DNA of 39,806 nt, from the NCBI GenBank assembly GCA_028870995.1, contig JAGWOI010000005.1, forward strand, positions 1 to 39,806, in the 5' to 3' direction. This document shows, in pieces, positions 1 to 20,324 of this stretch. The position numbers were made by a program, and so were the translations under genes. The notes beneath the pieces were generated by a model, which did no database searches, was not told where the DNA came from, and saw only the letters and a list, made by a program, of their open reading frames with translations. This stretch comes from Candidatus Omnitrophota bacterium. Lineage in GTDB: Bacteria; Omnitrophota; Gorgyraeia; Zapsychrales; Fredricksoniimonadaceae. Within the stretch, counting starts at the first letter, position 1; the number at the start of each line of letters is the position of its first letter.

Positions 1-3000
1 GCATCAACTGGTATGACCTAAATGTCTTGAGCCGCAACGGCATCAACTGGAATGATATTAACACGTTGAGCCGCAACGGCGTCAACTGGTATGACCTAAA
101 CGTTTTGAGCCGCAACGGCATCAACTGGAATGATATCAACAGATTGAGCCGTACCGGCATCAACTGGTATGACCTAAACGTTTTAACCCGTACCGGCATT
201 AACTGGAATGACTTGAGTGTCTTGGCCGGCACCGGCATCAATTGGAGTGACATCAATGCCTTAAGCCGTACCGGCATCAACTGGAATGACTTCGGGGTGT
301 TGAGCAAGAACGGCATTAATTGGTATGATTTGAATGTTTTAAGTAGGACCGGCATAAACTGGAACGATTTGGGCGTCATGGGCAAGACCGGTGTGAATTG
401 GCAGGATCTGACCGTCATGTCTACAGCGGCCACCAATTGGTCGGCCATCGCCTATTTGAGTCAGTCAGGCGTCAACTGGGGTGATTTCGCCTCCATTACC
501 CATGCCGGCATCAACTGGTTTGACTTAAGCCAGCTGACAGGCACCGGCATCGGCGGCAACATCAACTGGCAGGACTTCACGGTCCTGTCACAGGCCGGCG
601 TTAACTGGGATGATATCGCCGTCATGAGCGGCACCGGCGTCAACTGGAATAATTTCGGGGTGTTGAGCAAGGCCGGCATTAACTGGAATGATTTCGGAGT
701 CTTGAGCAAAACCGGGCTTAATTGGAGTGATATCAACGTGCTCAGCCGTACAGGCATCAATTGGAACAGCTTTGGCTTGATGAGCAATGTGGGGATCAAC
801 TGGAATGATATCAACGTGCTAAGCCGTACCGGCGTCAACTGGAATGACCTCGATATATTGACCACCACAGGCATCAACTGGAGCGACATCGGCAGCTTCT
901 TTAACACACTGTCCGAATCCGGCATTAACTGGAGTGACCTGGCGGTGATGACCAAGATAGGGATGAACTGGTCCGATTTGGCCGTGTTGACCAAGACCGG
1001 CGTCAATTGGGGTGACATGGGAGCTTTAAGCAGGACCGGTATTAATTGGAATGACTTTGACGTTCTAAGCAGGACCGGCATTAATTGGGGCGATATTGAT
1101 GTGATCAGCCGTACAGGGATCAACTGGAACGATTTCGGCGTGTTGAGCAAGACAGGTATCAATTGGAATGACTTCGGGGTGTTGAGCAGGACCGGCATTA
1201 ATTGGGGTGATATTGATGTTATCAGCCGTACCGGCATCAACTGGAATAATTTCGGCCTCATGAGCAATGTGGGGGTCAACTGGAACGACATCGGCGCCTG
1301 GAGCAAGGCCGGGATCAACTGGAACGATTTCCAGATGCTCTCCACTACTGGCATCAACTGGATGGATTTGGGTAGCTATATCAACACCTTATCTGAAGCG
1401 GGTATCAACTGGAGTGATTTCGCGGTCATGACCCGGACAGGCATCAATTGGAGCGACATGGCGGTCTTGACCAAGACAGGCCTCAATTGGAGCGACATCA
1501 ACACCATCAGCCGCACGGGCATCAACTGGAATGACTTCGGTGTGTTGAGCAAGACCGGTATTAATTGGAGCGACATCAACACCATCAGCCGCACGGGCAT
1601 CAATTGGAATGATTTCGGGCTCTTGAGCAAGACCGGCATCAATTGGAACGATTTTGGGGTCTTGAGTAATACCGGCATTAACTGGAGTGATATCAACACC
1701 ATCAGCCGCACGGGCATCAACTGGAATGACTTCCAGGTCCTCTCCAGGGAAGGCATCAACTGGGATGATCTCAACGCGTTAAGTCGTAATGGGATCAACT
1801 GGAATGACTTGAATGTACTGACCCGCAACGGCATCAACTGGAATGACTTGAACGTACTGACCCGCAACGGCATCAACTGGAATGACTTGAACGTGCTGAC
1901 CCGCAACGGCATCAACTGGTACGATTTGAACGTGCTGACCCGCAACGGCATCAACTGGTACGACATTTATACCTTAAGCCATACGGGTATCAATTGGAAT
2001 GATTTTGGTCTCTTGAGCAAAACCGGGATCAATTGGTACGATCTAAGCGTGCTGGGCAGCACCGGCATCAACTGGGGCGACATTGACCGTATCAGCCGCA
2101 CGGGTATTAATTGGGATGACTTCGGGGTCTTGGGCAAGACCGGTGTCAATTGGTCTGATATCAATGTTCTCAGCCGCACAGGCGTCAACTGGAATGACAT
2201 CAATACCTTAAGCCGCATCGGCGTTAATTGGAGCAACTTCAGTCTGATGAGCAATGTGGGCATCAATTGGAATGATGTTAAGACATGGAGCACGACCGGC
2301 ATCAATTGGAGCGATTTACAGATCCTGACTGCAGCCGGCATCAATTGGTCAGACTTGGGAAGCTACATCAATACCTTGTCGGAAGCGGGGATCAACTGGA
2401 GCGATCTGGCGGTCATGACCAAGGTGGGCATGAATTGGAGCGATCTGTCGGCTTTAAGCAAGACCGGTATCAATTGGAATAATTTCGGATTATTGAGCAA
2501 TACCGGTATCAACTGGAATGACTTTGGGGTTTTAAGCAAGACCGGCGTCAATTGGGGCGACATCGATGTGATCAGCCGCACAAACATCAACTGGAACAAC
2601 TTCAGCCTCATGAGTAATGTGGGCGTCAACTGGAACGACATCGCTGCCTGGAGCAAGGCCGGTATTAACTGGAACGACTTCCAGCTCCTGTCCACCACTG
2701 GCATCAACTGGATGGATTTGGGCAGCTATATCAATACCCTGTCCGAATCAGGCATCAACTGGAGCGATTTTGCGATGATGACCAGGACCGGCGTCAATTG
2801 GGAAGACCTCTCCGTCCTGTCCAAGACCGGGCTTAATTGGAATGACTTCCAGGTCCTGAGCAAGACCGGCATCAACTGGAATGATTTCGGGGTCTTGAGC
2901 AAGACGGGCGTTAACTGGAGCGACATCAACGCGATCAGCCGCACAGGCATCAACTGGAGCGATTTCGGGGCCTTAAGCCGCACGGGCATCAACTGGAATG

Positions 3001-5933
3001 ATTTTGGTCTCTTGAGCAAGACCGGCATCAACTGGGGTGATATCAACACCATCAGCCGTACGGGCATCAACTGGTCGGATATCGGTACCTTGAGCCGCAC
3101 GGGGATCAATTGGAACGATTTTGAGATCTTAAGCAGGGCCGGCGTTAACTGGTATGACCTCGATGTGCTCAGCCGCAACGGGATCAACTGGTATGATCTC
3201 AATGTATTGACGCGTACAGGCATCAACTGGGGTGACTTGGGGGGCATGACCGGCATCGGCATCAACTGGAGTGATTTGAATGCCTTAAGCCGCCAGGGCA
3301 TCAACTGGAATGATATGTACCTCATGGGCCGCATCGGCATCAATTGGAACGATATCAAGAGGTTAAGCACGACCGGTATCAATTGGGATGATATCAACGT
3401 CTTAAGCCGTACAGGTCTTAATTGGAATGACCTCAACGTCCTAAGCAGGACAGGGATCAACTGGAATGACTTCGGCGTGATGAGCAAGACCGGCGTCAAC
3501 TGGAATGACCTGGGGGTCTTAAGCGCCAGCGGCGTCAATTGGAACCAGCTTGAGGTCATCACCCAGACAGGCGTTAATTGGAATGATCTAAGACGGTTGA
3601 CCCGCGTGGGCATTAACTGGGAGCAGCTTTCGGTGATGAGCAATACGGGCATCAATTGGGAGAATTTCTCCGTATTGACGACCTCCGGCATCAACTGGGG
3701 CGATTTAAGCCAGCTGACAGGGGTCGGCGGGGGCGGCATTAATTGGGAAGCCTTTGGGCTGCTGTCCAGCTCGGGGATCAATTGGGAAAACATGGCGGTC
3801 ATGAGTCTGACCAATATCAATTGGTATGACTGGGGCGTCTTAAGTCAGACCGGCATCAACTGGAATGATTTCGGAGTTCTGGGCAAGTCCAATATCAATT
3901 GGAATGACATCCGGGTCATGAGCCAGAATGGCGTTAATTGGCAGAACTTTGGATTGATGTCCAATTCCGGTGTGAATTGGAACAATATCAGCGTGCTGTC
4001 AGCCTCAAACGTCAACTGGAGCGCATTCTCAACCCTCAGCAATTCCGGCGTCAACTGGTTTGACCTGGGCGTTTTAAGCAGTTCCGGCGTCAATTGGAAT
4101 GATTTGGGAAGATTGACAACAATCGGTGTTAATTGGAATGACCTGCAGGTCATGAGCAGCACAGGCATCAACTGGTCCGACTTCGGCGTATGGAGCAAGG
4201 CCGGTATCAACTGGAATGATTTCGGGGTCATGGGCAAGATCGGCATCAATTGGAGCGACATGGGGGTGCTGACCAAAACAGGCGTCAACTGGACGGATCT
4301 CTCCGTCTACACCAATTCCAACATCAATTGGAACGAGCTTGGTGCCTTGTCCAATGCCGGCATCAACTGGAACGCTCTGGCGGTGTTTACTGCAGCCAAT
4401 GTCAATTGGGACGGATTGGATCTGATCACCCAGGCCGGCGTTAATTGGAACGACTTCGGACTCCTAACCAACGCCGCTATTAACTGGAATGATCTGAACA
4501 CGTTAAGCCGCACGGGCATCAACTGGATGGATTTCAACGTGTTCAGCCGTTCCGGCATCAATTGGAATGACTTCGGGGTCCTTTCTAAGGCAGGCGTCAA
4601 TTGGGCCTCCCTCACCAGCCTTACCTATACGGGGATCAATTGGGACGATTTGAAGGTGATGACAAATTCCGGCGTCAACTGGACCGGGATCGGTTCGCTG
4701 TCCCAGGGCGGCGTCAACTGGGATTCGCTGGCGCTTTTGGCTGATGCCAACGTCAACTGGTTTGCCTTGACCAATATCGCCAATTCCGGCATCAACTGGC
4801 AGGGGATTTCAGCCCTGAGCGCGGCCACCGTCAACTGGAGCGATCTGGCGGTGCTGTCCACCACCGGCGTCAATTGGGAAGAGTTCAAGAAGATATCAGA
4901 AACGGGCATCAATTGGAGCGATTTGAATGCGCTGAGCCGTGCTCAGATCAATTGGGACAACATCAATGTGCTCTCCACCAGCAATATCAACTGGCAGGGC
5001 ATTGATGTGCTCTCCTATGCCAATGTGAACTGGTACGGCATTGGCCAATTGTCCACCTCCGGCATTAATTTCGAAAGCTTCAGCCAGATGTCCACCTCGG
5101 GCATCAACTGGATCGACATCGCCCGGCAAACCAGCGCCGGTATCAATTGGGCGGATGTGGCCTCAGAAAGCCATGGCGGCATCAACTGGGAGAGCCTGGC
5201 GGTGTCCAGCACCTCGGGTATCAACTGGGCCGGCATCAACACCCTGATGACCAACATGACGACGGTGCTCACCAATGTGGGCAGCCCCACGGACTCTGCC
5301 ACGTCCAGCACTTTATTCGGGAAACTTGCGAGCATTTCTGCGGCTGTGTCCAGCGTCTCTTCAAACAGTACTGTCACGACGATCAATAATACGGTCAACA
5401 CGGTCCTTTCCACCTTGCAGTCGGTGCAAAGCGCGATCGGCACCTCCAAGAGCACTTCCAGCTCCACCTTGTTCGGCCTGATCGGTACCTCCAGCAGCCA
5501 GTCGACCGACACCTTGTTCGGGGTGGCCAATAATGCCAGCAACAACGCCGCCGCGGCCATGACCTTTGCCCAGCAGATCATCTCGGACTTAGGCGTCAAC
5601 GGAGCCACGCCGTCGGCTTATCAGAAACTCAAGGATTTGGAGAACGAAATCCAGGATCTTCAGGCCTCGCTGACGAATTTGACCAAAGGCGTAAATAACG
5701 CGCCGGGATTGACGCAGGAAGCCATTGACCGGTTGACCAAGTTCGTCAATGCCCAAGCCCAGCAGGCCGGATTGGAAAAGACATTGGGCGTCAAGGGGCT
5801 GGGGGCCAAGGAAGCCCAAGATATGCAAAAGGTCAACGACAAGCTGGAAGAAATCGATGCCAAGATCGATGCCATACGCGAGGCCGTAGGCGGCCAGGAA
5901 GTGGTGGTCAAGAGCTACTATGAAAGCGAATAA
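1..5933 (+). CDS. Giant 13-residue-repeat protein, 3' part (5' end outside window)
   Basis: The frame is already open at base 3 (codons Ile-Asn-Trp), so the gene starts upstream; a TTG at 27 is only an internal codon. About 1,745 of the visible residues are a tandem 13-residue repeat with consensus TGINWNDFGVLSK, invariant mainly at Gly, Ile/Val, Asn and Trp. The phase is kept throughout except for a few units with 3-4 extra residues (for example GSYINTLSEAG). I see no cysteine. After about nt 5240 the repeats give way to a Ser/Thr-rich tail with three TLFG motifs (about nt 5310, 5466 and 5511), then a charged, coiled-coil-like C-terminus ending KSYYESE. There is no visible membrane anchor at the C-terminus. 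The last 14 nt overlap the next gene, so the two are probably translationally coupled. I do not recognise the family. A structural or surface role is inferred from size and context; the N-terminus, which would show a signal peptide, is not visible. Confidence 0.9.
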   Translation, partial: INWYDLNVLSRNGINWNDINTLSRNGVNWYDLNVLSRNGINWNDINRLSRTGINWYDLNVLTRTGINWNDLSVLAGTGINWSDINALSRTGINWNDFGVLSKNGINWYDLNVLSRTGINWNDLGVMGKTGVNWQDLTVMSTAATNWSAIAYLSQSGVNWGDFASITHAGINWFDLSQLTGTGIGGNINWQDFTVLSQAGVNWDDIAVMSGTGVNWNNFGVLSKAGINWNDFGVLSKTGLNWSDINVLSRTGINWNSFGLMSNVGINWNDINVLSRTGVNWNDLDILTTTGINWSDIGSFFNTLSESGINWSDLAVMTKIGMNWSDLAVLTKTGVNWGDMGALSRTGINWNDFDVLSRTGINWGDIDVISRTGINWNDFGVLSKTGINWNDFGVLSRTGINWGDIDVISRTGINWNNFGLMSNVGVNWNDIGAWSKAGINWNDFQMLSTTGINWMDLGSYINTLSEAGINWSDFAVMTRTGINWSDMAVLTKTGLNWSDINTISRTGINWNDFGVLSKTGINWSDINTISRTGINWNDFGLLSKTGINWNDFGVLSNTGINWSDINTISRTGINWNDFQVLSREGINWDDLNALSRNGINWNDLNVLTRNGINWNDLNVLTRNGINWNDLNVLTRNGINWYDLNVLTRNGINWYDIYTLSHTGINWNDFGLLSKTGINWYDLSVLGSTGINWGDIDRISRTGINWDDFGVLGKTGVNWSDINVLSRTGVNWNDINTLSRIGVNWSNFSLMSNVGINWNDVKTWSTTGINWSDLQILTAAGINWSDLGSYINTLSEAGINWSDLAVMTKVGMNWSDLSALSKTGINWNNFGLLSNTGINWNDFGVLSKTGVNWGDIDVISRTNINWNNFSLMSNVGVNWNDIAAWSKAGINWNDFQLLSTTGINWMDLGSYINTLSESGINWSDFAMMTRTGVNWEDLSVLSKTGLNWNDFQVLSKTGINWNDFGVLSKTGVNWSDINAISRTGINWSDFGALSRTGINWNDFGLLSKTGINWGDINTISRTGINWSDIGTLSRTGINWNDFEILSRAGVNWYDLDVLSRNGINWYDLNVLTRTGINWGDLGGMTGIGINWSDLNALSRQGINWNDMYLMGRIGINWNDIKRLSTTGINWDDINVLSRTGLNWNDLNVLSRTGINWNDFGVMSKTGVNWNDLGVLSASGVNWNQLEVITQTGVNWNDLRRLTRVGINWEQLSVMSNTGINWENFSVLTTSGINWGDLSQLTGVGGGGINWEAFGLLSSSGINWENMAVMSLTNINWYDWGVLSQTGINWNDFGVLGKSNINWNDIRVMSQNGVNWQNFGLMSNSGVNWNNISVLSASNVNWSAFSTLSNSGVNWFDLGVLSSSGVNWNDLGRLTTIGVNWNDLQVMSSTGINWSDFGVWSKAGINWNDFGVMGKIGINWSDMGVLTKTGVNWTDLSVYTNSNINWNELGALSNAGINWNALAVFTAANVNWDGLDLITQAGVNWNDFGLLTNAAINWNDLNTLSRTGINWMDFNVFSRSGINWNDFGVLSKAGVNWASLTSLTYTGINWDDLKVMTNSGVNWTGIGSLSQGGVNWDSLALLADANVNWFALTNIANSGINWQGISALSAATVNWSDLAVLSTTGVNWEEFKKISETGINWSDLNALSRAQINWDNINVLSTSNINWQGIDVLSYANVNWYGIGQLSTSGINFESFSQMSTSGINWIDIARQTSAGINWADVASESHGGINWESLAVSSTSGINWAGINTLMTNMTTVLTNVGSPTDSATSSTLFGKLASISAAVSSVSSNSTVTTINNTVNTVLSTLQSVQSAIGTSKSTSSSTLFGLIGTSSSQSTDTLFGVANNASNNAAAAMTFAQQIISDLGVNGATPSAYQKLKDLENEIQDLQASLTNLTKGVNNAPGLTQEAIDRLTKFVNAQAQQAGLEKTLGVKGLGAKEAQDMQKVNDKLEEIDAKIDAIREAVGGQEVVVKSYYESE
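756..2831 (+). repeat. Four copies of a higher-order module (about 82 residues)
   Basis: Approximate copies lie at 756-1001, 1236-1481, 2223-2468 and 2586-2831. Each has a unit ending SNVG, then two ordinary units, then a unit carrying a 4-residue insertion (GSFFNTLSESG or GSYINTLSE[AS]G), then SDxAVMT-type units. The insertion points lie at 891, 1371, 2358 and 2721. They are 160, 329 and 121 residues apart, which is 12, 25 and 9 units of 13 plus 4 residues each time. Confidence 0.8.
1818..1973 (+). repeat. Near-identical 39-bp tandem copies (recent expansion)
   Basis: Starting at the CTG codons at 1818, 1857, 1896 and 1935, consecutive units read ctgacccgcaacggcatcaa and onward with only a few base differences. 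They encode LTRNGINW[NY]DLNV. This homogeneity is far above that of the rest of the array. Confidence 0.85.
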
Positions 5934-7224
5934 CAGACCGGGCATAATATTAGCTTTATTTTTCTTTTTCCTGGCGGGAAGGGCTGCAAGCGGCCTTGCC
6001 GACATTGTCATCAATGTCGTGGCTGTCAATCCAACCAACACCCCCAAGACCTCCGCAATCAAATTTCCCTTGCCAGGTGAACTGACGGCGGAGGATATCC
6101 TGGATACCAACGGACTGCAGTTGGATTACAACGTTGATGATGCCGATTACGTTGTTTATGGCGACGTCACTCTTAAGCCCAAGGAATCAAAGACCTTCCG
6201 CATTCATGTCAAAGACAAATGGGTGATCACCACCAACCAGGTGCAGGACTTGAAGAACCAGATCGACCAGGGTTATCAGACCCTGGGGGAACCTTACAAT
6301 TCCGAAAATGCCAAGATCCTTAAAAGCCGCCTGGATTCAAAGATCGATTACATTGTCGGTCTCCAGGCCAGCAGCGCGGACAGCGTCGACAAACGCATCG
6401 ATGATTACCGCGCCTATGCCAATGAAATGAAGAGGATCGAGGATGATGCCCTGGACGTGGACTACTGGCGTTCCAACCCCAATGATGACCAGAGCCAAAA
6501 ATTGATCCATCTGGATATCGAAGCCAATAACCCCACCAAGAAAATCAAGCACGCCAAGATCAAGGAATATCTGCCGGTGGAAGTCAAGCCCGAGGACGTT
6601 GTGGAAGCCCAGGATTTTGAGGTGCGTTTTGACCAGGCCAAGCAGCAGGCCTTCCTTATTAAGGAAGAGGACATTGACCCGGGCGCTACAAAGAAATACT
6701 CCGTCGGCATCCTGGATATATGGAACATTGATCAGACAAAGATTGATTACCTCAAGTCCCGCGCCCAAAAAGCTTTTGATGTGTTAAAGGACACCAAATA
6801 TGAACCCAGCGCCAAGATCCTCATGGACAGGATTACCGCTGATTTAAGTTCCATCCAGGATTCGCAGGGCGTATCCCGGCCCATTCTCGAACATATCAGT
6901 GCGTACCGCGCCAATAAAACCACCTTTAACAGCGCCAGGACGGATGTGGAAACGCTGGAGAAGCTGGTGTCGGTGTTCCGTGAAGACCTGGAAAAGAGCA
7001 AGGTGGAGAACATCCTGCAGAAGATCCAGGGATTGAGGGGCGTTGCCGACGTTTCCAAGGTGATGTTCAACAAGAAATTCGAATCAGCGACGGCCTGGAG
7101 TTTTATCGGGTGGATATTGCTGGCGGTCGGCCTGGTGACGGTGTTGAGCCTTGGCGTGGCCATGCTGCGCGCCAAAGACAAGAAAATTGATGACGGTCCA
7201 CCCAAGCAGTCAGGAGGCTCATGA
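5920..7224 (+). CDS. Exported single-pass membrane protein with internal duplication
   Basis: 434 aa. The ATG at 5920 lies inside the end of the giant repeat gene (14-nt overlap). An N-terminal signal peptide (hydrophobic IILALFFFFLAG, cleavage probably near ASGLA) is followed by a large exported region. A C-terminal membrane helix (about residues 390-413, WSFIGWILLAVGLVTVLSLG) then leads into a short basic tail, so the bulk should be periplasmic or outside. The exported part looks like two copies of one module. Each has a beta-rich piece ending near FRIHVKDKW or YSVGILDIW, then a helical piece with matching AKILKSRLDSKI and AKILMDRITADL. I do not recognise the family. Position suggests that it anchors the repeat protein to the membrane next to the ATPase; this is inference. 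It overlaps the alpha-subunit gene by 4 nt. Confidence 0.85.
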   Translation: MKANNRPGIILALFFFFLAGRAASGLADIVINVVAVNPTNTPKTSAIKFPLPGELTAEDILDTNGLQLDYNVDDADYVVYGDVTLKPKESKTFRIHVKDKWVITTNQVQDLKNQIDQGYQTLGEPYNSENAKILKSRLDSKIDYIVGLQASSADSVDKRIDDYRAYANEMKRIEDDALDVDYWRSNPNDDQSQKLIHLDIEANNPTKKIKHAKIKEYLPVEVKPEDVVEAQDFEVRFDQAKQQAFLIKEEDIDPGATKKYSVGILDIWNIDQTKIDYLKSRAQKAFDVLKDTKYEPSAKILMDRITADLSSIQDSQGVSRPILEHISAYRANKTTFNSARTDVETLEKLVSVFREDLEKSKVENILQKIQGLRGVADVSKVMFNKKFESATAWSFIGWILLAVGLVTVLSLGVAMLRAKDKKIDDGPPKQSGGS

Positions 7225-8753
7225 GCGGTATTAAATTGCAATATACGGAAGTAGGTACTGTCAGGGCCCTGCGCGGATGCATCGTCTTCGTCCGCGGTTT
7301 CCGCAATTGCATCAACGGCCAGTTGATCAAATTCGGCTATGGCACGATCGGCATGATCGTGGGCTTCAATGAGGAGGAGGCCCAGGTCCTCATCATCAAG
7401 GAAACCGAGCGGATAAAGACGGGAGACAAGGCCACAGCTTCCATCGAACCTTTTGAAACACCCGTCGGCAGCAAATTCATAGGCCGTATCCTCAACCCCC
7501 TGGCCGAACCCCTGGACGGCCTCGGTCCCGTCGAGTGGGACCAGAAGATGACGATTTTTCCCGAATCTCCGCCGATCCTGGTGCGCCAGCCCCTCAAATT
7601 GACCCTGGAGACGGGCATCAAGGTATTGGATGCCATGATCCCCATTGGCCGCGGCCAGCGCGAACTTATCATGGGGGATAAAAGCACGGGCAAGACCACC
7701 TTTGTCACGGACACCATCATCAACCAAAAGAACACTGATGTCATCTGCATTTATTGCGCCATCGGCAAGCCGCGTTCGGCCCTGGCCAAGATCGTGCAAT
7801 TGTTCAAGGAGCATGACTGTTTTAAGTACAGCCTTATCGTCTCTTCCGGGGCCTCGGCCCCGCCGGGGCAGCAGTACCTGGCGCCGTACATGGCCTGTTC
7901 CGTGGCGGAATATTTCCTTCAACAGGGCAAGCATGTCTTCATCGGTTTCGATGATTTCACCAAGCATGCCTGGTGCTACCGCGAAATCTCCCTGCTGCTG
8001 GGTCGTCCTCCGGGACGCGACTCCTATCCGGGCGACATTTTTTATCTGCATTCCAAAATGATCGAACGCGCCTGTTATCTTGACCAAAAAAGAGGCGGTG
8101 GCTCCGTCACCTTCTTTCCCATCGTTGAGATCCTCGAGGGCGACTTGACGGCCTTCGTGCCGTCCAACCTGGTGTCCATGACTGACGGGCAGATTTATTT
8201 GAGCACCACCCTTTTCGGCGAAGGTCAGAAGCCCGCCCTGGACTTAGGCTTGTCGGTTTCGCGTGTGGGGTCCAAGGTGCAGTGGCCGGCGATCAAGAGC
8301 CTCTCGGGGCCGTTGCGTTTGGAATACCTGCAATACCGCGAATTGCTGCGTATTTCAAAGCTCAAGGCCACAGGGCATTCAGATGAAACTTTGGAAAAGC
8401 TTAAGCGGGGCGCCATCCTGACGGAGATCCTGCGCCAGGACAAGGACAGGCCGGTGCCGCAGGAGATCCAGGTCATCATCTTCTACGCCTTTAACAAGAA
8501 AATGATGAATGAGCTGACCATTCCCGAGGTGCGGCTATTCCAGGACGAGCTTTTGGGTTATGCGCTCAAGAATGCCCCGGACGTTTTGAAACTTGTGCGG
8601 GAGAAGCGCAAACTGGAGCCGGACGTGGAGAAGGCCATCACCGATTTCGTAAACCGCTATGTCCAGGATATCACTTCCAAACGCGCCAAGGTGGCGACGG
8701 ACAAGTTCGACGATTACGTGGATTCGGAGCCGGCGGTAGCGGCCAAGAAATGA
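7221..8753 (+). CDS. atpA: F-type ATPase alpha subunit
   Basis: 510 aa. Non-catalytic nucleotide-binding subunit of the F1 head. It shows a beta-barrel N-domain, a P-loop GDKSTGKT (about residues 152-159), the SSGASAPPGQQYLAPY segment and LSVSRVGSK, which carries the arginine finger used by the beta catalytic site. The P-loop Lys falls about 17 residues earlier than in the E. coli protein, because the N-terminal extension that normally docks on delta is missing. The ATG overlaps the upstream stop (ATGA). Sequence is clearly AtpA but divergent. It could belong to an alternate (N-ATPase-like) F-type enzyme rather than the main ATP synthase, because gene order and partners are unusual. Confidence 0.95.
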   Translation: MSGIKLQYTEVGTVRALRGCIVFVRGFRNCINGQLIKFGYGTIGMIVGFNEEEAQVLIIKETERIKTGDKATASIEPFETPVGSKFIGRILNPLAEPLDGLGPVEWDQKMTIFPESPPILVRQPLKLTLETGIKVLDAMIPIGRGQRELIMGDKSTGKTTFVTDTIINQKNTDVICIYCAIGKPRSALAKIVQLFKEHDCFKYSLIVSSGASAPPGQQYLAPYMACSVAEYFLQQGKHVFIGFDDFTKHAWCYREISLLLGRPPGRDSYPGDIFYLHSKMIERACYLDQKRGGGSVTFFPIVEILEGDLTAFVPSNLVSMTDGQIYLSTTLFGEGQKPALDLGLSVSRVGSKVQWPAIKSLSGPLRLEYLQYRELLRISKLKATGHSDETLEKLKRGAILTEILRQDKDRPVPQEIQVIIFYAFNKKMMNELTIPEVRLFQDELLGYALKNAPDVLKLVREKRKLEPDVEKAITDFVNRYVQDITSKRAKVATDKFDDYVDSEPAVAAKK

Positions 8754-8759
8754 TGTCTT

Positions 8760-9059
8760 ATGGTCAAATTCAAGGATACGTTCCGCTGCGTCATTTTGAG
8801 CCCTAAGAACCTGATTTTTCAAAGCAATGTCAAAAGCCTTTATATCATCGGGGACCGCAGCGAATACGAGCTTTTGGCCTATCATTATCCGTTGATAGGC
8901 CTGGTGCAGCGGGGTGATATCATCATCGATTGGAAGCAGCGGATACCAGTGGGTTCGGGGATTTTGCGTTTCTTTGCCAATGAATGCACCATCCTGGTGG
9001 AAGAAACGGAAAAAACTTTTAGCGCGGCCCAGCAGCCGCAGGCAGCCGGCAAGCATTAA
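8760..9059 (+). CDS. atpC: F-type ATPase epsilon subunit, short form
   Basis: 99 aa. It matches the N-terminal beta-sandwich of epsilon (FRCVILSPKNLIF, then VKSLYIIGDRSEYELLAYHYP, then LVQRGDIII). It ends after a short Gln/Ala tail and lacks the C-terminal helical hairpin that inhibits ATP hydrolysis in many bacteria. It should still join gamma to the c-ring. The start at 8760 is 6 nt after atpA. Because the inhibitory hairpin is absent, regulation by epsilon is not expected; this is inference from domain content. Confidence 0.85.
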   Translation: MVKFKDTFRCVILSPKNLIFQSNVKSLYIIGDRSEYELLAYHYPLIGLVQRGDIIIDWKQRIPVGSGILRFFANECTILVEETEKTFSAAQQPQAAGKH

Positions 9060-9313: not shown

Positions 9314-9556
9314 ATGGGGTTTAGGCATTGGTTTCAGGGTTTGCAGATGATCGGCGGGTTCCTGGTGGTGGTGGCGCTGCCGTGTTTTTATGTGGGGCTA
9401 TGGGGATCCAAAATGATCAACGACCTGGGCAATCATCCTTCCAGGGCCTTCAAGATCCAGGCGTCGGCCGGCTGGAAGATCTTACTGGTCGAAATCATTT
9501 CATTTGTCATGTTGATCGGCTGGTTCGTATTTTTATATAATCTCCAAAACGAGTGA
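9314..9556 (+). CDS. Second c-like subunit (paralogue of the preceding gene)
   Basis: 80 aa. Two membrane helices joined by the polar loop NDLGNHPSRAFKI, and helix 2 with a central Glu in ILLVEIISFVMLIGW. From the loop Leu-Gly to the Glu there are 23 residues, exactly as in the first c subunit, and LG, P-S, KI, VE and IS align. The Arg of the loop is replaced by His. It has a longer, aromatic N-terminus (MGFRHWFQG). It is probably a second ring component or a c-like assembly or stator protein. It is not an AtpI/AtpQ-type protein by this alignment, though that remains an alternative. Confidence 0.7.
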   Translation: MGFRHWFQGLQMIGGFLVVVALPCFYVGLWGSKMINDLGNHPSRAFKIQASAGWKILLVEIISFVMLIGWFVFLYNLQNE

Positions 9557-9564
9557 GGTTTCTT

Positions 9565-10317
9565 ATGGGTTGGAATTTGATCATCCAATTTTTGATTTTG
9601 ACGGTGGTGGTTTCCGGCGGGGTCATCTTCGCCCTGTACATGGTCCTGATCAGGACCGTCGACGGGGCCAAGCAGCGCCTGGACCGCGATGCCGAAGCCG
9701 CGCGCCAGCGCGAAGCGGAATTGAACCAAAAGATCAAGGAAGCGGACGCCGAATTGCAAAAGCGCAACAAGGAACTGGACATCATGGAAAAGAAGATGCG
9801 CCAGGAGCTGGAAGAAAGGATCACCAAGCAAAAAGAGGAGATCATCGGCAAGGCCCGTTCTGAAGCCGAAGAGATCATCAACAAGGCCCAGAACACCCGC
9901 GACCAGATCCGCCGGGAAATCGAGAAGACCATGGAAATAAGGATCATCGATTATGCCGCCAAGATCACCTCGGAAATACTCGGCCCCAAGGTGAGGGAGG
10001 GCTTGGACAAGGAATTGATCAAGGAATTCATCGATAGCTTAGGCAAGCTGGACATGTCCCGGATCAACGCCGACATCACGGCTGCGGAGGTGGTCTCCGC
10101 CACCCCTATCCCGGAGACCTTATTGGCCGATATTGCCAAAGTCTTTAAAACCAAGCTTTCCCGCGATATCAAATTAAACCCAAAGGTGGACCCGTCGGTG
10201 GTGGGTGGTGTCATGATGATGTTCGAGAGCCTGCAATTGGACGGCAGCCTGCAGAACGGCATTAAAGAGGCCGCCAACGCCTTAAAGCAGCAGGTGGAGA
10301 AGCAGTATTCGGCTTAA
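9565..10317 (+). CDS. atpF: F-type ATPase b subunit fused to the delta C-terminal region
   Basis: 250 aa from the ATG at 9565, chosen because GAGG lies 6 nt upstream; a GTG at 9553 overlapping the previous stop is possible. There is one N-terminal membrane helix (about residues 4-27), a long charged coiled coil (about 30-135, rich in KxxE patterns) and a C-terminal delta-like segment. The last includes DIKLNPKVDPSVVGGVMMMF and LDGSLQNGIKEAANALK, matching the end of AtpH. The six-helix N-terminal domain of delta is not evident. It forms the peripheral stalk joining membrane and head. b/delta-type proteins of about 250 aa also occur in alternate F-type ATPases. Confidence 0.85.
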   Translation: MGWNLIIQFLILTVVVSGGVIFALYMVLIRTVDGAKQRLDRDAEAARQREAELNQKIKEADAELQKRNKELDIMEKKMRQELEERITKQKEEIIGKARSEAEEIINKAQNTRDQIRREIEKTMEIRIIDYAAKITSEILGPKVREGLDKELIKEFIDSLGKLDMSRINADITAAEVVSATPIPETLLADIAKVFKTKLSRDIKLNPKVDPSVVGGVMMMFESLQLDGSLQNGIKEAANALKQQVEKQYSA

Positions 10318-10323
10318 AAAGAT

Positions 10324-11178
10324 ATGAGTAAGGCCAGCAAAGTCAAGGTTGAGGTGGCGGAAGTCCGGGACCTCGTGGATTTGATCCAGGTGCTCAAAGA
10401 CGTGGCGGACATGAAATATCACGCCCTGGCGGCCCAAAAGATCAAATTTAACCGTTTCAACGAATCGTTCACCGAATTTTTCAGCCTGGTCGGTTTTTCG
10501 CAGGTGGCGCATCCCTTGGTCACCAACAGTCTCCCAAGCTCGGTCATTTTGGTGGTCTCCACCGAGCGGGGCTTTGTGGGTGATTTAAACACGCGGGTGG
10601 TTTCCCGCGCCATGGAGGAAAAGGAAAAGAATCCCAGTGCCCAGTTCGTGGTCGTCGGTAAGAAGGGTATCATGAAACTGGAAGGGCTAGGCCAGAAGAT
10701 CCTTAAATCCTGGGAAGACATCGAAGACCGCGGGTTTTATGAAGTGGCGGTGGAGATCAAGACCTATCTGGTCAAGGAAGTGATGGAAGAACGGGTGGGC
10801 AAGGTGACGATTGTTTATCCCTGGCCCAAGGATTATACGGTGACCAAGCCCCGGTCGGTCAAGTTGCTGCCGTGCGAGGACCTTCTGCCTAAGCAGACCC
10901 AGACCGTGGAAAAATTCCGAGAGGTCATTGAGGAGTCGGATCCCGTGGACATGATCGGTTACCTGGCCGACCTGTGGTTATCGGCCAAGATTTATGAAAT
11001 TTTCTTTGATACGAACCTGGCTGCAGCCTCGGCCCAGACCCAGCAGCTGGACAGCAGCTTGGGCAAGATGCGCAAAGAGCGCGACGTGGTCAAATTGAAG
11101 TACCGTAAAGCCAAGCGCGGGGACATCGACAAGAGTTTGCGCGAGGTCTTCTCCGCCAGGATGATGGTGACTAAATAG
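10324..11178 (+). CDS. atpG: F-type ATPase gamma subunit
   Basis: 284 aa. Central rotor shaft. An N-terminal helix (about residues 10-50, with DVADMKYHALAAQKI) and a C-terminal helix (about 215-280, with LAAASAQTQQLDSSLGKM and the DKSLREVFSA end) frame the globular domain (VILVVSTERGFVGDLNTRV, the Rossmann-like part with the usual GLCG replaced by GFVG). Divergent in detail, but the topology and length match AtpG. It is 6 nt after atpF and 12 nt before atpD. Confidence 0.9.
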   Translation: MSKASKVKVEVAEVRDLVDLIQVLKDVADMKYHALAAQKIKFNRFNESFTEFFSLVGFSQVAHPLVTNSLPSSVILVVSTERGFVGDLNTRVVSRAMEEKEKNPSAQFVVVGKKGIMKLEGLGQKILKSWEDIEDRGFYEVAVEIKTYLVKEVMEERVGKVTIVYPWPKDYTVTKPRSVKLLPCEDLLPKQTQTVEKFREVIEESDPVDMIGYLADLWLSAKIYEIFFDTNLAAASAQTQQLDSSLGKMRKERDVVKLKYRKAKRGDIDKSLREVFSARMMVTK

Positions 11179-11187
11179 GAGTCTTAA

Positions 11188-12630
<1,443 letters not shown>

Positions 12631-12646: not shown

Positions 12647-14407
12647 ATGTACAAGCCAGTAGCCAACAAAATTCTCGTCGATGTCCTGGTCAAGTCCGGG
12701 CTTGTTAGCCCGGACGATGCCCAGGCCTACATCCAGAACGCCCGTCAGGAACACAAAAATCTCAACAGCTACCTGATCCGCCACGGGATCCTCACCGAAC
12801 GCGAGATCATCGAAGCCCTCTCCAGGGAACTCAACCTGCCGGTCGTTGATTTAAAGGCCAGGGAGGTCCCGCAGGCGGTGATCGACCGCGTGCCGGTGAA
12901 ATTCGCCTCCTTTTATAAGTTTATGCCGGTGGCCATCGAAGGCAATGAGTTGACCCTGGCTATTGCCTCGCCGCTGGATGTCCGCATGGAAGACGACATC
13001 CGGGTGTATTTGGGGCTGGAACCCAAGGAGGTGCTGGCCCTGCGCAGCGATATCGATGAGGCCCTGAAAAAATATTACGGTCTTGCTTCGGACACCATTG
13101 ACCGCATCCTTACCAAGGACCCCACCAAGCGCAGGAACGGCGGCGAAGAAGCCTGGGTCGAGGACATTGAGAAAAAAAGCGAAGACCCGTCAGTTGCCAA
13201 GCTGGTCAACCAGATCATCCTGGAGGCCTATCAGAAAAGGGCCACCGACATCCATATCGAGCCCTACCGCGACCGCATGCGCCTGCGCTACCGCATCGAC
13301 GGGGTGCTGATGGACGCCAACCTGCCTCCCGAAGCCAGGCATTTCATGCTGCCCATGATCTCGCGCATCAAGATCATGTCGAATTTGAGCATCACGGAAA
13401 GAAGGCTGCCGCAGGACGGATCGACGGTGGTGCGCACCAAGGACCAGGATCTGGACCTGCGCATTTCCACCATGCCGGCCCTGCGGGGCGAGAGCATGGT
13501 CATCCGTATTCTGCCCACCAAGGCCATGCGCACCAGGCTGGAGGACTTGGGGTTGAACCAATCCAACGCCCGCAAATTCAGGGAACTGATCGCAGCCTCC
13601 CACGGCATCATTTTTGTCACCGGACCGACGGGCAGCGGCAAGACGACGACCCTCTACGCCTGCCTGCACGAGATCAACAGCGCGGACCAGAAGATCATCA
13701 CCATCGAAGATCCCGTTGAATACGAAATGGACGGGGTCACCCAGATCCAGATCAATTCCAAATTGAATTTCAGTTTTGCCGACGGCTTGCGCAATATCCT
13801 GCGCCACGACCCGGACATCATCATGGTGGGCGAGGTGCGTGATTTGGAGACCGCGGAAATCGCCATCCGCACGGCCCTGACCGGCCATCTGGTCTTCTCG
13901 ACCCTGCACACCAATGACGCCGCCAGCAGCATCACCCGTTTGATCGACATGGGGGTGGAGCCATATCTCGTGGCTTCTTCCGTCGAAGCTTTCGTGGCCC
14001 AGCGCCTGGTGCGCCTGATCTGTCCCCAATGCAAGGAAGAGGACGCCAAGGTGCTCGATGCCGTCCTCCAGGAAATGGGCAGGTCGCTTAAAATGCCGCC
14101 GGAGTCCATCAAGGTCTATCGCGGCCGGGGCTGCGAGGTGTGCAACAATACGGGTTATTACGGCCGTACCGCGATCTATGAAATTTTGCATATGGATGAA
14201 ACCATCCGTTCGATGATGACCCATAAGCCCAGCATGGAGAAGATCAAGCGTATGGCCATGAAAAACGGCATGGCCACCTTAAGGCAAAACGGCTGGCAAT
14301 GCGTGGCCGCGGGCATCACGACGGTGGAAGAGGTTCTGTATGTCAGCTCCAAGGATGACTGGTCCGCTCCGGGGGAAATACCGGCGGCGGGTGTACTGAC
14401 GGTTTAA
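12647..14407 (+). CDS. gspE: Type II secretion/type IV pilus assembly ATPase
   Basis: 586 aa. Cytoplasmic hexameric ATPase that powers pseudopilus assembly. Two N-terminal MshEN-type parts (from about residue 5, with YLIRHGILTEREI and LPVVDLKAREVP) precede the ATPase core. Core motifs are Walker A GPTGSGKTTT (about residue 326), Walker B IIMVGEVRD (about 391), the His box HLVFSTLHTNDA and the zinc tetracysteine CPQC...CEVC (about residues 459 and 495). Full length for the family. Because gspG/I/J/K follow, the T2SS name is preferred to PilB. The start is the ATG at 12647. Confidence 0.95.
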   Translation: MYKPVANKILVDVLVKSGLVSPDDAQAYIQNARQEHKNLNSYLIRHGILTEREIIEALSRELNLPVVDLKAREVPQAVIDRVPVKFASFYKFMPVAIEGNELTLAIASPLDVRMEDDIRVYLGLEPKEVLALRSDIDEALKKYYGLASDTIDRILTKDPTKRRNGGEEAWVEDIEKKSEDPSVAKLVNQIILEAYQKRATDIHIEPYRDRMRLRYRIDGVLMDANLPPEARHFMLPMISRIKIMSNLSITERRLPQDGSTVVRTKDQDLDLRISTMPALRGESMVIRILPTKAMRTRLEDLGLNQSNARKFRELIAASHGIIFVTGPTGSGKTTTLYACLHEINSADQKIITIEDPVEYEMDGVTQIQINSKLNFSFADGLRNILRHDPDIIMVGEVRDLETAEIAIRTALTGHLVFSTLHTNDAASSITRLIDMGVEPYLVASSVEAFVAQRLVRLICPQCKEEDAKVLDAVLQEMGRSLKMPPESIKVYRGRGCEVCNNTGYYGRTAIYEILHMDETIRSMMTHKPSMEKIKRMAMKNGMATLRQNGWQCVAAGITTVEEVLYVSSKDDWSAPGEIPAAGVLTV

Positions 14408-14411
14408 AGAT

Positions 14412-15620
14412 ATGCCTTCCTATATTTACAAAGCCAAAAAAGATGCGGTCAATGCCATTACCGGTCAGATAAGCGCCCAAACCCAGGAAGACGCTTTGGA
14501 ATTCATCAACCAGCTGGGGCTTATCCCGGTGTCCATTGAAGAAAGCAACGCCCAGGGCGTCCTGTTCCGCAATATCCGCGAAGTCAGGATCAGGGGCCAG
14601 GAGTTGTATCTTTTCAGCAAGCAGCTGGCTAGCCTTCTTAAATCCGGCCTGACGCTGCTTAAGGCTTTGGAAATCCTGTCGCAGCAGTGCAAGAACGTAT
14701 ATTTTGCCAGGGTCATCAGCGAGATCGCCATCGGCGTCAAGAGCGGCCGCGCTTTTTCCGCCTGCCTCGCGGATTATCCGGCCATATTCATGCCCTTGTT
14801 CGTGGCCCAGGTGTCCGCGGGTGAGGAGATGGGCAAGCTGCGCCAGATGCTTAACAGTGTCGCAGATTTTCTCAAGGCCCAGGATGAATTTTCCACCAAG
14901 GTCCGCAATGCTTGTGTTTACCCGGCATTCATGCTGGTGGTGGGCGTATCGACGGTGATTTTCATCCTTAGTTTTGTCATGCCCAAACTGGCCGTGATCT
15001 TCATGCAGGCCGGACAAGCCTTGCCCTGGCCGACACGGGTGGTGATGGCGGTCAGTCATTTCTTTAAATTTTACGGCTTGTGGGCCTTGGCGGCCATGGC
15101 CCTTGGCATTGCCGCTTTCAACCGGTGGCGGAAAACGGCTTTGGGTTCCATTGCGGTGGGCCAGTTTCTGCTAAATATTCCGTATGTGAGGGATTTTGTC
15201 TTAAAGGTCGACCTGGCCCGCTTTACCAGGACCCTGTCGCTGCTTTTGGAAAGCGGATTGACCATCATCCGTTCCATTGAAATGGCAATCCCCACCATGC
15301 ACAACCCGCAGTTGAAAGCGGACCTGCGCATGAGCATCCAGGGCCTGACGGGGGGCGAGGGCTTGGGTCATGCTTTAAGCCGTTCCGGTTTAATACCGCC
15401 CCTCATGGTTCAGCTGGTTACCGTTGGCGAGGAGTCAGGCTCGCTGCAGGACGCCCTGAAGGACATCGCCGAGGGATATGAGTCCGAGATCAGCGAAACC
15501 ACCAAATTGATCACGACCGTCCTTGAGCCGGTCATGATCGTGGTGGTGGGCGGGGTGGTGGGCTTCATCGTCTTTGCCATGCTGCTGCCCATCTTCTCCA
15601 TGGATATCATGGCCCGCTAG
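14412..15620 (+). CDS. gspF: Type II secretion inner-membrane platform protein
   Basis: 402 aa. Polytopic platform protein contacting GspE. It shows the N-terminal YIYKAKKDAVNAITGQI segment and two repeated T2SSF domains, each with a QLASLLKSGLTLLKALEIL-like motif (first near residue 73, second near 275 as FTRTLSLLLESGLTIIRSIE). Membrane helices lie near residues 175-200, 220-240 and 372-398. Starts 4 nt after gspE. Confidence 0.95.
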   Translation: MPSYIYKAKKDAVNAITGQISAQTQEDALEFINQLGLIPVSIEESNAQGVLFRNIREVRIRGQELYLFSKQLASLLKSGLTLLKALEILSQQCKNVYFARVISEIAIGVKSGRAFSACLADYPAIFMPLFVAQVSAGEEMGKLRQMLNSVADFLKAQDEFSTKVRNACVYPAFMLVVGVSTVIFILSFVMPKLAVIFMQAGQALPWPTRVVMAVSHFFKFYGLWALAAMALGIAAFNRWRKTALGSIAVGQFLLNIPYVRDFVLKVDLARFTRTLSLLLESGLTIIRSIEMAIPTMHNPQLKADLRMSIQGLTGGEGLGHALSRSGLIPPLMVQLVTVGEESGSLQDALKDIAEGYESEISETTKLITTVLEPVMIVVVGGVVGFIVFAMLLPIFSMDIMAR

Positions 15621-16459
15621 TGAGACCGCTAGTTTTATCCGCCATATTATTTCTCACCGTACAGGCTAACGCGCCAGCCGATATCGACGCTTCGTTTGCG
15701 CCGCCCGGCTGGCAGCAGTTTCAGGGCGATCATTTTGTGGTGCTTTGCCCTCCCGGCGACACCCAGGATTTCGCCAACGATGTCCTCAATCACGCCGAGG
15801 ATTATTACCATGATATCGCCGACGATATCGGCTATTCCCGTTACCGCAATTTTTGGACGTGGAATGACCGTGTGAAGATCGTCCTTTTCCAGGACCAGGC
15901 AGCGTACGTCCGCTTGACCGGCAAGCCGGCCTGGTCCGGCGGGTTTGCCTCCGAGCACTCCAGGCTTTTTAAAACCAGGGTCATTGTCAGTTATAAGGGG
16001 CAGCCCAATTTCATCAACGTGATCCTGCCCCACGAGATCACGCACCTGATCTTGCATGATTTCATCGGCTTCGGCCGTCCCGTGCCCAGGTTTTTCGACG
16101 AGGGGGTGGCCCAGCTGGAACAAAAGGACGACAGCCTGCAGCATATGGATGTGATGGCCAGGATGATCCTGGAGGGCAAAATCATCCCTTTGTCTGATCT
16201 ACCTGATTTTGACCTGATGGCCCATCAAAACGATCCTCAGATCGTATCGATTTTTTATGTAGAAAGTCTTTACATTGTCGACTTTTTGGTTAAAACTTAT
16301 GGTAAAGATTCCTTCAAAGAATTGTGCCGTCATTTAAGGGACGGCGAGGATTTTCGGCAGGCCCTTAAAAGTTCCTATTATCCGACCCTTGATTCCATGC
16401 GCAGCCTGCAGGAAAAGTGGGTGGAGTACGCCAAACAGTATTTTTACGAGGATAAATAA
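15620..16459 (+). CDS. Exported HEXXH metallopeptidase (peptidase MA-like)
   Basis: 279 aa. The GTG start at 15620 overlaps the last base of gspF. A signal peptide (LVLSAILFLTVQANA) is followed by a gluzincin-type active site: LPHEITHLILHDF (zinc His-Glu-x-x-His) and, some 20 residues later, FFDEGVAQLEQ, whose Glu is the likely third ligand. The arrangement fits the peptidase MA/DUF-type families. It acts in the periplasm or outside. Its place between gspF and gspG is unusual and suggests that it processes a protein linked to this secretion machine, or is itself a substrate; that is inference. Confidence 0.8.
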   Translation: MRPLVLSAILFLTVQANAPADIDASFAPPGWQQFQGDHFVVLCPPGDTQDFANDVLNHAEDYYHDIADDIGYSRYRNFWTWNDRVKIVLFQDQAAYVRLTGKPAWSGGFASEHSRLFKTRVIVSYKGQPNFINVILPHEITHLILHDFIGFGRPVPRFFDEGVAQLEQKDDSLQHMDVMARMILEGKIIPLSDLPDFDLMAHQNDPQIVSIFYVESLYIVDFLVKTYGKDSFKELCRHLRDGEDFRQALKSSYYPTLDSMRSLQEKWVEYAKQYFYEDK

Positions 16460-16460
16460 T

Positions 16461-16865
16461 ATGAGAAAATTTTCGAGAGACGCCTTTACCCTGGTTGAAA
16501 TCATGCTGGTTGTGATCATCATCGGCGCTTTGGCTGCGATGATCATCCCGCGTCTCTCGGGCCGGGGGGAAGAGGCCAAGGTTAAGGTGGCCAAGACGGA
16601 CATCGACGCCAACATCGCCACCGCCTTAAAGCTCTATGAATTGGACAACGGTTCCTTCCCCACGACCGAACAGGGCCTGCAGGCCCTGCGCGTCAAGCCC
16701 ACCACCAACCCCATCCCCGAAAACTGGAATGGTCCTTATATCGAGAAAGACCCTCTCGATCCTTGGGGCCATCCTTACATTTACGCGTCTCCCGGCGTGC
16801 ACCGTCCCGATTATGACCTCTCCTCGAAAGGAAACAATGGGACTGAGATCAGCAACTGGCAATAA
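16461..16865 (+). CDS. gspG: Major pseudopilin
   Basis: 134 aa from the ATG at 16461; an upstream in-frame ATG at 16389 would add 24 residues and bury the leader. Type III signal MRKFSRDA/FTLVEIMLVVIIIGALAAMI with Glu at +5. Position -1 is Ala rather than the usual Gly. The C-terminal DPWGHPYIYASPG and the ISNW end match the T2SG calcium-binding fold. It forms the pseudopilus shaft. It sits 1 nt after the metallopeptidase stop. Confidence 0.93.
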   Translation: MRKFSRDAFTLVEIMLVVIIIGALAAMIIPRLSGRGEEAKVKVAKTDIDANIATALKLYELDNGSFPTTEQGLQALRVKPTTNPIPENWNGPYIEKDPLDPWGHPYIYASPGVHRPDYDLSSKGNNGTEISNWQ

Positions 16866-18902: not shown

Positions 18903-20324
18903 ATGTTCGCTAACAAAAAATATCTAGCGGTTTGCGTCAACGACGGCATCATCAAGCTTGCCCAGGCCGGCTCTTCCGGGGATGTGGAAAAAATCGCCCG
19001 GTGTTCTTTCGCGGCTAATGCCGGCAACGAGGAAGCGGCAGGTGCGCTCAAGGCGTTGCTGCTTTCTTTCAACCGCAAGCTGCCGGTCATCTGTGTCGTC
19101 CCGGCCAGCGCCGCCACGGCCAAGACCATCGAAGTGCCTTCCACCGACCCGGAAGAGATCAAATCCATCATCAATTTGCAGGCCAGCCGTTACACTCCTT
19201 ACTCCAGGGAAGAAGTCCTCATCAGCTACATCAATTTAGGGTTGAATCTTTCCAACAACACCCGCCTTTTGATCGTGATCGTTCACCGTGACCTTGTTAA
19301 GGAAAAGCTCGATATCCTGGAAAGGGCGGGGTTAGATGTCGAGAAAGTCATTTTTGCGCCGGAAGCCCAGGCGCGGTTTTATGCCCGGGCCTTGAACCTT
19401 AAAAAGGATGCCGCCTCCGTTGGGGTGGTTGATTTTTCTCTCAACTCATCCAGCTGCATCAGCGTGGCCAACAGCACCCTGTCATTCCTGCGCCATTTCC
19501 CCATCGGCATCAAGGCCGTCATGCAGGGCGGAGATACGGTGGCTAAAATGCAGGAAGAGCTCAAAAAATCCATGGATGCCTATGTCCAGGAAGAAGGCAA
19601 CGAGGCGCTGTCCACCTATATAGTGACCACACCCACGCTCAACAATGTCCTTCCCGGTCTAAAGGAATCGCTGGGTGTCGCCTTCCAGGTCAATGCGTTC
19701 TTGAATTTCATCAAGTGCGGCACGGATGTGCGTAAAAAGCTGCAGGGCGATTTTGCGGACGATTCGTTCCTCGATGTCATTGCCTCGGCCGCGACCGCTG
19801 GCAAATGTGAAATCAATTTAATGCCTGAGGAGATGATCTTAAAGAAGACCGTGGACCGCCAGAGCCAGGAGGTCAGCAAGGCAGGTGTGGCGGCGGTCAT
19901 CATCATGGTCCTCATCGGGATTATCCTCATGAGCAACATTTATTTCAAGGACACGTATCTGAACAAGAATTTAAAGCAGCAATTCGCCCCTCAAATAAGT
20001 GAAGTCCAGAAACTTCAGGGGCAGATGAACAAGACCAAGCTGGTGCGTGAGTATATCAAGGACCGCATGGTTTCCCTGGACATCATCCGCCAGTTGTACG
20101 CCATTACGCCGACCACGATTTACCTGCGCGACATTACGGCAGACGAGGACGGCACGGTCACCATCGACGGGGTCGCCGATTCGATGAGCCTGGTGTATTC
20201 CTACGTAAAGATGATCGACGACTCGACCTCCTTCAAGGAGGCCAAGCTTAAATCCGCTTCGACCAAGAAAGATAACGGCAAGGAAGTCGGAACTTTTGAA
20301 ATCGAATTTAAGGAGAAGTCGTGA
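18903..20324 (+). CDS. gspL: PilM-PilN fusion (GspL-type assembly protein)
   Basis: 473 aa. An N-terminal actin-like PilM domain (about 1-310, with VPSTDPEEIKSIINLQASRY and an SVGVVDFSLNSSSC phosphate-loop region) joins a membrane helix (about 325-345, AAVIIMVLIGIILMSNIYF). A PilN-like periplasmic domain follows (ITPTTIYLRDITADEDGTVT, then IDGVADSMSLVYSYV). This is the domain order of GspL. It links GspE in the cytoplasm with the periplasmic part of the machine. Followed with 4-nt overlap by the PilO/GspM gene. Confidence 0.88.
   Translation: MFANKKYLAVCVNDGIIKLAQAGSSGDVEKIARCSFAANAGNEEAAGALKALLLSFNRKLPVICVVPASAATAKTIEVPSTDPEEIKSIINLQASRYTPYSREEVLISYINLGLNLSNNTRLLIVIVHRDLVKEKLDILERAGLDVEKVIFAPEAQARFYARALNLKKDAASVGVVDFSLNSSSCISVANSTLSFLRHFPIGIKAVMQGGDTVAKMQEELKKSMDAYVQEEGNEALSTYIVTTPTLNNVLPGLKESLGVAFQVNAFLNFIKCGTDVRKKLQGDFADDSFLDVIASAATAGKCEINLMPEEMILKKTVDRQSQEVSKAGVAAVIIMVLIGIILMSNIYFKDTYLNKNLKQQFAPQISEVQKLQGQMNKTKLVREYIKDRMVSLDIIRQLYAITPTTIYLRDITADEDGTVTIDGVADSMSLVYSYVKMIDDSTSFKEAKLKSASTKKDNGKEVGTFEIEFKEKS

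Follow-up and report, generated by a model that had tools for sequence, protein, structure and literature searches.

A 13-residue repeat protein of Omnitrophota as the proposed shaft of a giant secreted fibre encoded with a second F-type ATPase

We propose, with a probability of roughly 55%, that a long array of 13-residue units encoded at the edge of an Omnitrophota contig forms the shaft of a giant secreted alpha-helical fibre, anchored and coupled to an F-type ATPase as a leg or tether. The window, i.e. the whole stretch of DNA analysed (39,806 nucleotides), covers the opening 39.8 kb of contig C19 in an Omnitrophota assembly of 2.34 Mb and 59 contigs. In the following sections, we describe the repeat and its probable fold, the operon to which the giant gene belongs, and the distribution of both within the phylum.

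The repeat array and the extent of the giant gene

The window begins inside a frame on the forward strand (3..5933, 1976 aa) that is open from the contig edge. Its repeat array, the 3' part of a giant gene, covers positions 3..5219 (+) and comprises 133 unit starts, counted after seven false N-N-F splits were dropped, with the consensus I/V-N-W-x-D-h-x-V-L-S/T-x-T/A-G. Units of exactly 13 residues predominate (119), accompanied by five of 17 and one of 16 residues; seven more 13-mers were cut by the search pattern. The remaining segment (5220..5933, +) comprises the last unit and, merging from it, an amphipathic C-terminal tail of coiled-coil-like character, which is conserved in relatives.

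The array is truncated by the start of contig C19, and its 5' part lies on contig C17, the sole other repeat-bearing place in the genome. Contig C17 ends (position 110887 of 110887) within a 4,019-aa frame carrying 278 units, which opens with a signal-peptide-like start, as in relatives, followed by an Ig-like head. Since C17 holds the genome's only N-terminus and C19 its only C-terminus, we take them as the two ends of one gene broken in assembly. Only a 28-base repeat is common to the two contig ends, which leaves the exact junction unreadable by overlap; in relatives, too, contigs nearly always begin or stop within the array. Together, the two parts give a giant gene of at least about 6,000 aa and at least 411 units. 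The figure of about 130 units given by the first-pass annotation, which was made from the letters of the window, therefore describes the window well but not the total. In one relative (G016), an unbroken frame of 10,972 aa carries about 795 units.

Long open frames (1,190–1,681 aa) also run antisense to the array in two related loci (L064:6774-11819 and L078:10378-13950) and are evidently a by-product of the codon pattern. Several database matches were rejected. Pfam matches to Ntox33, Lysostaphin_N, Pox_A31 and Raf1_HTH are summation artefacts in which no single stretch passes, as are the CbiE and small PHROG matches. Weak PDB profile matches to flagellin (E=0.0014) and the LDL receptor (E=0.027) probably reflect composition or W-T/D-like spacing, while a match in Mesomycoplasma hyorhinis (21% identity), located beside variable lipoproteins, resembles low complexity.

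Residue pattern and helix-capping features of the unit

Sequence comparison of the 119 exact 13-mers revealed Asn at position 2 in every unit (119/119), Trp at position 3 in 118/119 and Asp at position 5 in 97/119. Position 1 is Ile or Val in 112/119, position 6 is L, F, I, M, V or W in 119/119, and position 13 is Gly in 106 units and Asn in nine. A similar profile is seen in 5,214 units across the phylum (N2 98%, W3 98%, D5 83%, position 13 Gly 80% plus Asn 9%). Each unit had been read at first pass as carrying a capping box, a hydrophobic staple and a Schellman pattern. We scored the full capping set, namely hydrophobic residues at N' and N4 (the staple), an N-cap residue with a polar N3, Gly or Asn at C', and hydrophobic residues at C3 and C''. 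The complete set is present in 109 of the 126 scored window units in one register and in none in each of the other twelve, and across the phylum in 84% of 5,088 units, which bears out the reading. Its placement of Asp5 as N3 of the capping box holds less firmly: Asp is the usual residue there, but the substitutes N, S and G outnumber E and are as turn-like or N-cap-like as they are N3-like.

At the DNA level the 119 units are all different, whereas they encode 108 distinct protein units, and Asn2 is specified by both codons (AAC 68, AAT 51); the conservation thus acts at the protein and not at the DNA level. The near-invariance of Asn2 exceeds the needs of N-capping, for which S, T or D would do, and probably points to a further role for the Asn and Trp residues. 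The G034 family is more permissive: of its 66 W-anchored units, 12 carry Ser in place of Asn2 and 13 carry L, V, F, Q, R or Y. Its locus L074 (G034:C4), in which Asn2 is often Ser, has extra domains that interrupt the array and lies in a genome without a nearest-group ATPase alpha subunit.

The motif N-W-S/T, formally an N-glycosylation sequon, occurs in about 39% of units phylum-wide and in 22% of those in the window, which also contains a gene for an STT3-type oligosaccharyltransferase (27033-29477, -). Glycosylation of Asn2, if present, would compete with the N-cap reading. In the array (3-5219) and in relatives (e.g. L032 and L027), unit types tend to alternate with a period of two (26 residues), and positions 7, 8 and 11 show increased likeness in charge to the same position two units on (lag 2). 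This alternation could reflect up-down pairing of helices or a history of 78-base duplication.

Evidence for one helix per unit

Each 13-residue unit very probably forms one short capped helix, a conclusion supported, indirectly, by covariation, charge pairs, hydrophobic period and unit-length changes, all independent of structure prediction, and by predicted secondary structure. Direct-coupling analysis of 4,936 three-unit windows found the strongest pairs at positions 7-11 (i+4) and 5-8 (i+3). Within the unit, mutual information and direct-coupling scores are highest at separations of 3 and 4, drop at 5 and rise a second time at 6-7. When positions 4-11 were permuted through all 40,320 orders, p was 0.0002 for helical and 0.36 for strand spacing. 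The helix covariation score is positive in 8/8 lineage groups, of which only some are significant alone. Charges follow the same spacing: opposite charges at positions 7/11 are in excess (756 observed, 442 expected), and like charges are avoided at 5/8 (60 versus 278 expected) and at 8/11 (46 versus 196). Between neighbouring units, like charges at position 11 occur about as often as expected (1523 versus 1521), contrary to stacked strands, which should avoid them.

The mean hydrophobicity period is 115 degrees in the 13-mers, 105–110 degrees in the 17-mers and 100 degrees in the last unit, which runs into the tail; on the Kyte-Doolittle scale, helix and strand cannot be told apart from the 13-mers alone. 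Unit length changes most commonly by +4, roughly a helical turn, and hydrophobic residues are retained at positions 3, 6, 10 and 13 in most 17-residue variants. Composition counts against a helix: I, V, T, G and N, all of low helix propensity, are abundant in the unit.

Overall fold

Structure prediction, which the first-pass annotation had suggested as a check, gave a divided answer. Supplied with 75 aligned rows of 16 units, AlphaFold2 (AF2) placed one helix in each of the 16 units, mostly over positions 3-11, at very low confidence (pLDDT 40, pTM 0.18). Run without alignment on one near-perfect 12-unit stretch, it returned a beta-solenoid at pLDDT 76.5 and pTM 0.65, although its five single-sequence models disagree (pLDDT 76, 61, 59, 37 and 31). 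A confident beta-solenoid was the outcome that the first-pass annotation had named as refuting its own reading, and in single-sequence mode such a model did appear. We regard it as a likely artefact, because AF2 is reported to predict a beta-solenoid for over 40% of random perfect repeats, in most cases with pLDDT 70 or more (PMC11795689), the five models are discordant, covariation points the other way and no solved fold matches the model at E<=0.001.

A real beta-solenoid would make each unit one small coil, with strands at positions 1-3 and 6-10 and with ladders of Asn and Trp along the fibre. The near-invariance of Asn2 and Trp3 does resemble such ladders, many residues are beta-branched and the substitutes N, S and G at position 5 are turn-like; these features, like the single-sequence model, speak for such a fold. 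Strand-like periodicity and lateral stacking were nevertheless not found, given the spacing of the covarying positions and the unavoided like charges at position 11, and the insertions in the 17-mers stay in helical phase. The single-sequence AF2 model dissents; we consider this fold improbable. Slightly better placed, though still unlikely, is a chain of capped helices without a fixed superhelix, strung like beads into a flexible, extensible tether. The low tertiary confidence of AF2, the many small polar residues and the concentration of the strongest couplings within the unit, with weak inter-unit couplings except at the same position, would all suit such a chain; runs of 272 and 303 units without any change in length, together with the near-invariant Trp, imply instead a fixed geometry. 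On balance, a helix per unit is probable and a regular rod is plausible. The one-helix-per-repeat solenoid put forward at first pass is thus supported for the helix, whereas the solenoid is not established at a pTM of 0.18. With an advance of 5 to 10 angstroms per helix, our estimate from known helical repeats, 411 units would span about 200–400 nm.

The operon of the giant gene

The gene that follows the array overlaps the stop of the giant gene by 14 bases (5920..7224, +). According to its sequence features, it encodes a 434-aa anchor protein with a signal peptide, two similar domains and a C-terminal transmembrane helix; no relatives of this protein were found in Pfam, NCBIfam or PDB. Next comes a set of F-type ATPase genes on the same strand: a second, non-respiratory copy of the alpha subunit (7221..8753, +), a small subunit that is epsilon-like by position and size (8760..9059, +), subunit c (PF00137; 9072..9302, +), a second c-like subunit (9314..9556, +), a fused b-delta stator subunit (9553..10317, +), gamma (10324..11178, +) and beta (11191..12630, +). 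In keeping with the second c-like assignment, the c76 query also matches the c80 counterpart in L026. Subunit a is absent from the operon, and the genome's only copy lies on contig C2 with another alpha/beta set. The alpha subunits on C19 and C2 are 40% identical, which marks the C19 set as distinct from the respiratory one. The C19 alpha matches the MMOB1660 model at 390 bits, under its cut-off of 600 bits.

Directly downstream of the ATPase genes lie type 4 pilus/type II secretion-like genes, which encode a GspE/PilB assembly ATPase (12647..14407, +), a GspF/PilC platform protein (14412..15620, +), pseudopilins, among them a GspG-like major one (16389..16865, +, from the listed ORF start, the true start possibly lying further in), and a fused PilM/PilN-like protein (18903..20324, +). 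This run also contains a peptidase MA-type gene (15620-16459). Elsewhere, the window encodes a nitric oxide reductase, NorB with a cytochrome c-like domain (22290-24509).

Distribution in Omnitrophota

The order of giant, anchor and ATPase genes is kept in every first-set relative whose contig reaches that far and in more distant relatives, and across relatives the synteny extends from the giant gene through anchor and ATPase to GspE/F. We surveyed 237 Omnitrophota genomes, taking as nearest-group alpha subunits those scoring 555 or more, a threshold picked after seeing the list. The repeat is present in 38 genomes and the nearest-group alpha in 36; both occur in 34 (34/38 and 34/36; Fisher p about 3e-34, ignoring relatedness). 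By our count from the tables, repeats and alpha share a contig in 25 of the 38. Four repeat-bearing genomes (G034, G042, G055 and G074) lack the nearest-group alpha.

The anchor domain is more widely distributed and was found in 99 genomes. Two-domain anchors lie directly upstream of an alpha gene in 43/43 cases, 35 of them in repeat-bearing genomes. At 33 further places the domain is part of a larger ORF of up to 12,861 aa, in 32/33 cases directly upstream of an alpha gene, and none of these places is in a repeat-bearing genome; one such anchor-fused giant matches Ig-like Kre9/KNH domains. The occurrence of the anchor domain in different giant chains at one position suggests that giant proteins of unrelated kinds, in some lineages fused to the anchor, partner the same anchor and ATPase. 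Nothing speaks more strongly than this shared placement for a single machine of giant, anchor and ATPase. A variant arrangement is seen at L081 (G013:C14:8500-16679), where a second ATPase locus combines two tandem alpha genes with an anchor gene and, upstream, a short match that is tail-like and lacks repeats.

Proposed function

The repeat with its helix-like covariation, the signal-peptide-like start, the conserved gene cluster and the fusion of anchor to giant in other lineages are observed; in the model that we propose, we infer the tertiary structure of the rod, the binding of tail to anchor, the contact between anchor and ATPase, and the movement. A helix at about residues 3-11 of each unit, capped by Asn2 and Asp5 in front and by Gly13 behind, would pack head to tail against its neighbours, with no linker between them, to form a long alpha-helical rod of regular build, ending in the Ig-like head at the N-terminus and the coiled-coil-like tail at the C-terminus. 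The tail would most likely bind the product of the next gene, the putative single-pass membrane anchor, which may couple the fibre both to the downstream F-type ATPase (alpha, epsilon-like, two c-like, b-delta, gamma and beta, without subunit a) and to the products of the pilus/type II secretion-like genes. The resulting leg or tether could span hundreds of nanometres to another surface and be moved or reset by ATP hydrolysis. A bolder formulation, which we hold only tentatively, is that a rotary F-type ATPase lacking subunit a drives or tensions a giant helical fibre made of an undescribed 13-residue one-helix repeat, and that the type of fibre is interchangeable across lineages, being either the rod or other giants that are fused to the same anchor and, in the single case identified, Ig-like.

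The giant protein may instead be only a passive surface adhesin or coat, its adjacency to the ATPase reflecting co-regulation within a host-interaction island. Giant ORFs of Omnitrophota have been proposed as adhesins or coats (PMC10066038), and the N-terminal head has an Ig-like look that would fit such a role. We judge it rather unlikely, as the overlapping genes, the strict gene order across classes, the mutual co-occurrence and the fusion of the anchor domain to further giants in that same place all point to a physical complex. With the leg or tether as the preferred reading, two poorly understood traits of Omnitrophota, giant ORFs and 'symbiotic' ATPases, become linked through one operon, a shared anchor domain and interchangeable giant fibres, and a giant ORF without an assigned role becomes a testable partner of a motor-like ATPase. 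The 13-residue repeat also offers a structural test case, in which two modes of AlphaFold2 give opposite folds.

Comparison with known systems

The closest precedent lies in the phylum itself. Seymour et al. (2023) treat the Omnitrophota ATPase beside pili as one host-interaction trait and giant ORFs as another, and claim for the phylum that the alpha subunit clusters in a tree with Mycoplasma type 2/3 (PMC10066038). The window appears to hold one of these 'symbiotic' type 2/3 F-type ATPase/type 4a pilus loci, with its second ATPase beside pilus-type genes; in the passages located by term, that paper speaks neither of a repeat unit or an anchor domain nor of an operon that would join giant ORF and ATPase (PMC10066038).

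In the gliding machinery of Mycoplasma mobile, an F1-like ATPase (MMOB1660/1670) is thought to work with the giant proteins Gli349, Gli521 and Gli123 (PMC8406192). The likeness, an F1-like ATPase paired with giant extracellular leg and crank proteins, is one of logic, and the Omnitrophota locus differs in having pilus genes and c-like subunits. Among the matches to Pfam and NCBIfam family models, none names Gli349, Gli521 or Gli123. A related F1-like X0 ATPase of Mycoplasma acts with the MIB-MIP surface proteins by a mechanism that is not known (PMC12994834). It likewise joins an atypical F-type ATPase with cell-surface proteins, but MIB and MIP bind and cleave antibody, of which there is no sign here.

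For the repeat itself, our literature search on the motif and on one-helix-per-repeat solenoids found nothing relevant. The phage tape-measure TMP repeat (PF05017) likewise combines a W-x-x-hydrophobic type of motif and short repeats with a very long protein chain. The motif is similar, but neither PF05017 nor any other Pfam repeat family matches the 13-residue unit, relatives of the repeat were found neither in phages nor in viral contigs, and the giant protein is evidently secreted. Alpha-solenoids such as TPR, PPR, HEAT and ARM have units of about 34–43 residues with two or three helices. If the rod model is right, the Omnitrophota array shares with them tandem helical units and an elongated protein, but would build it from units of 13 residues with one helix each.
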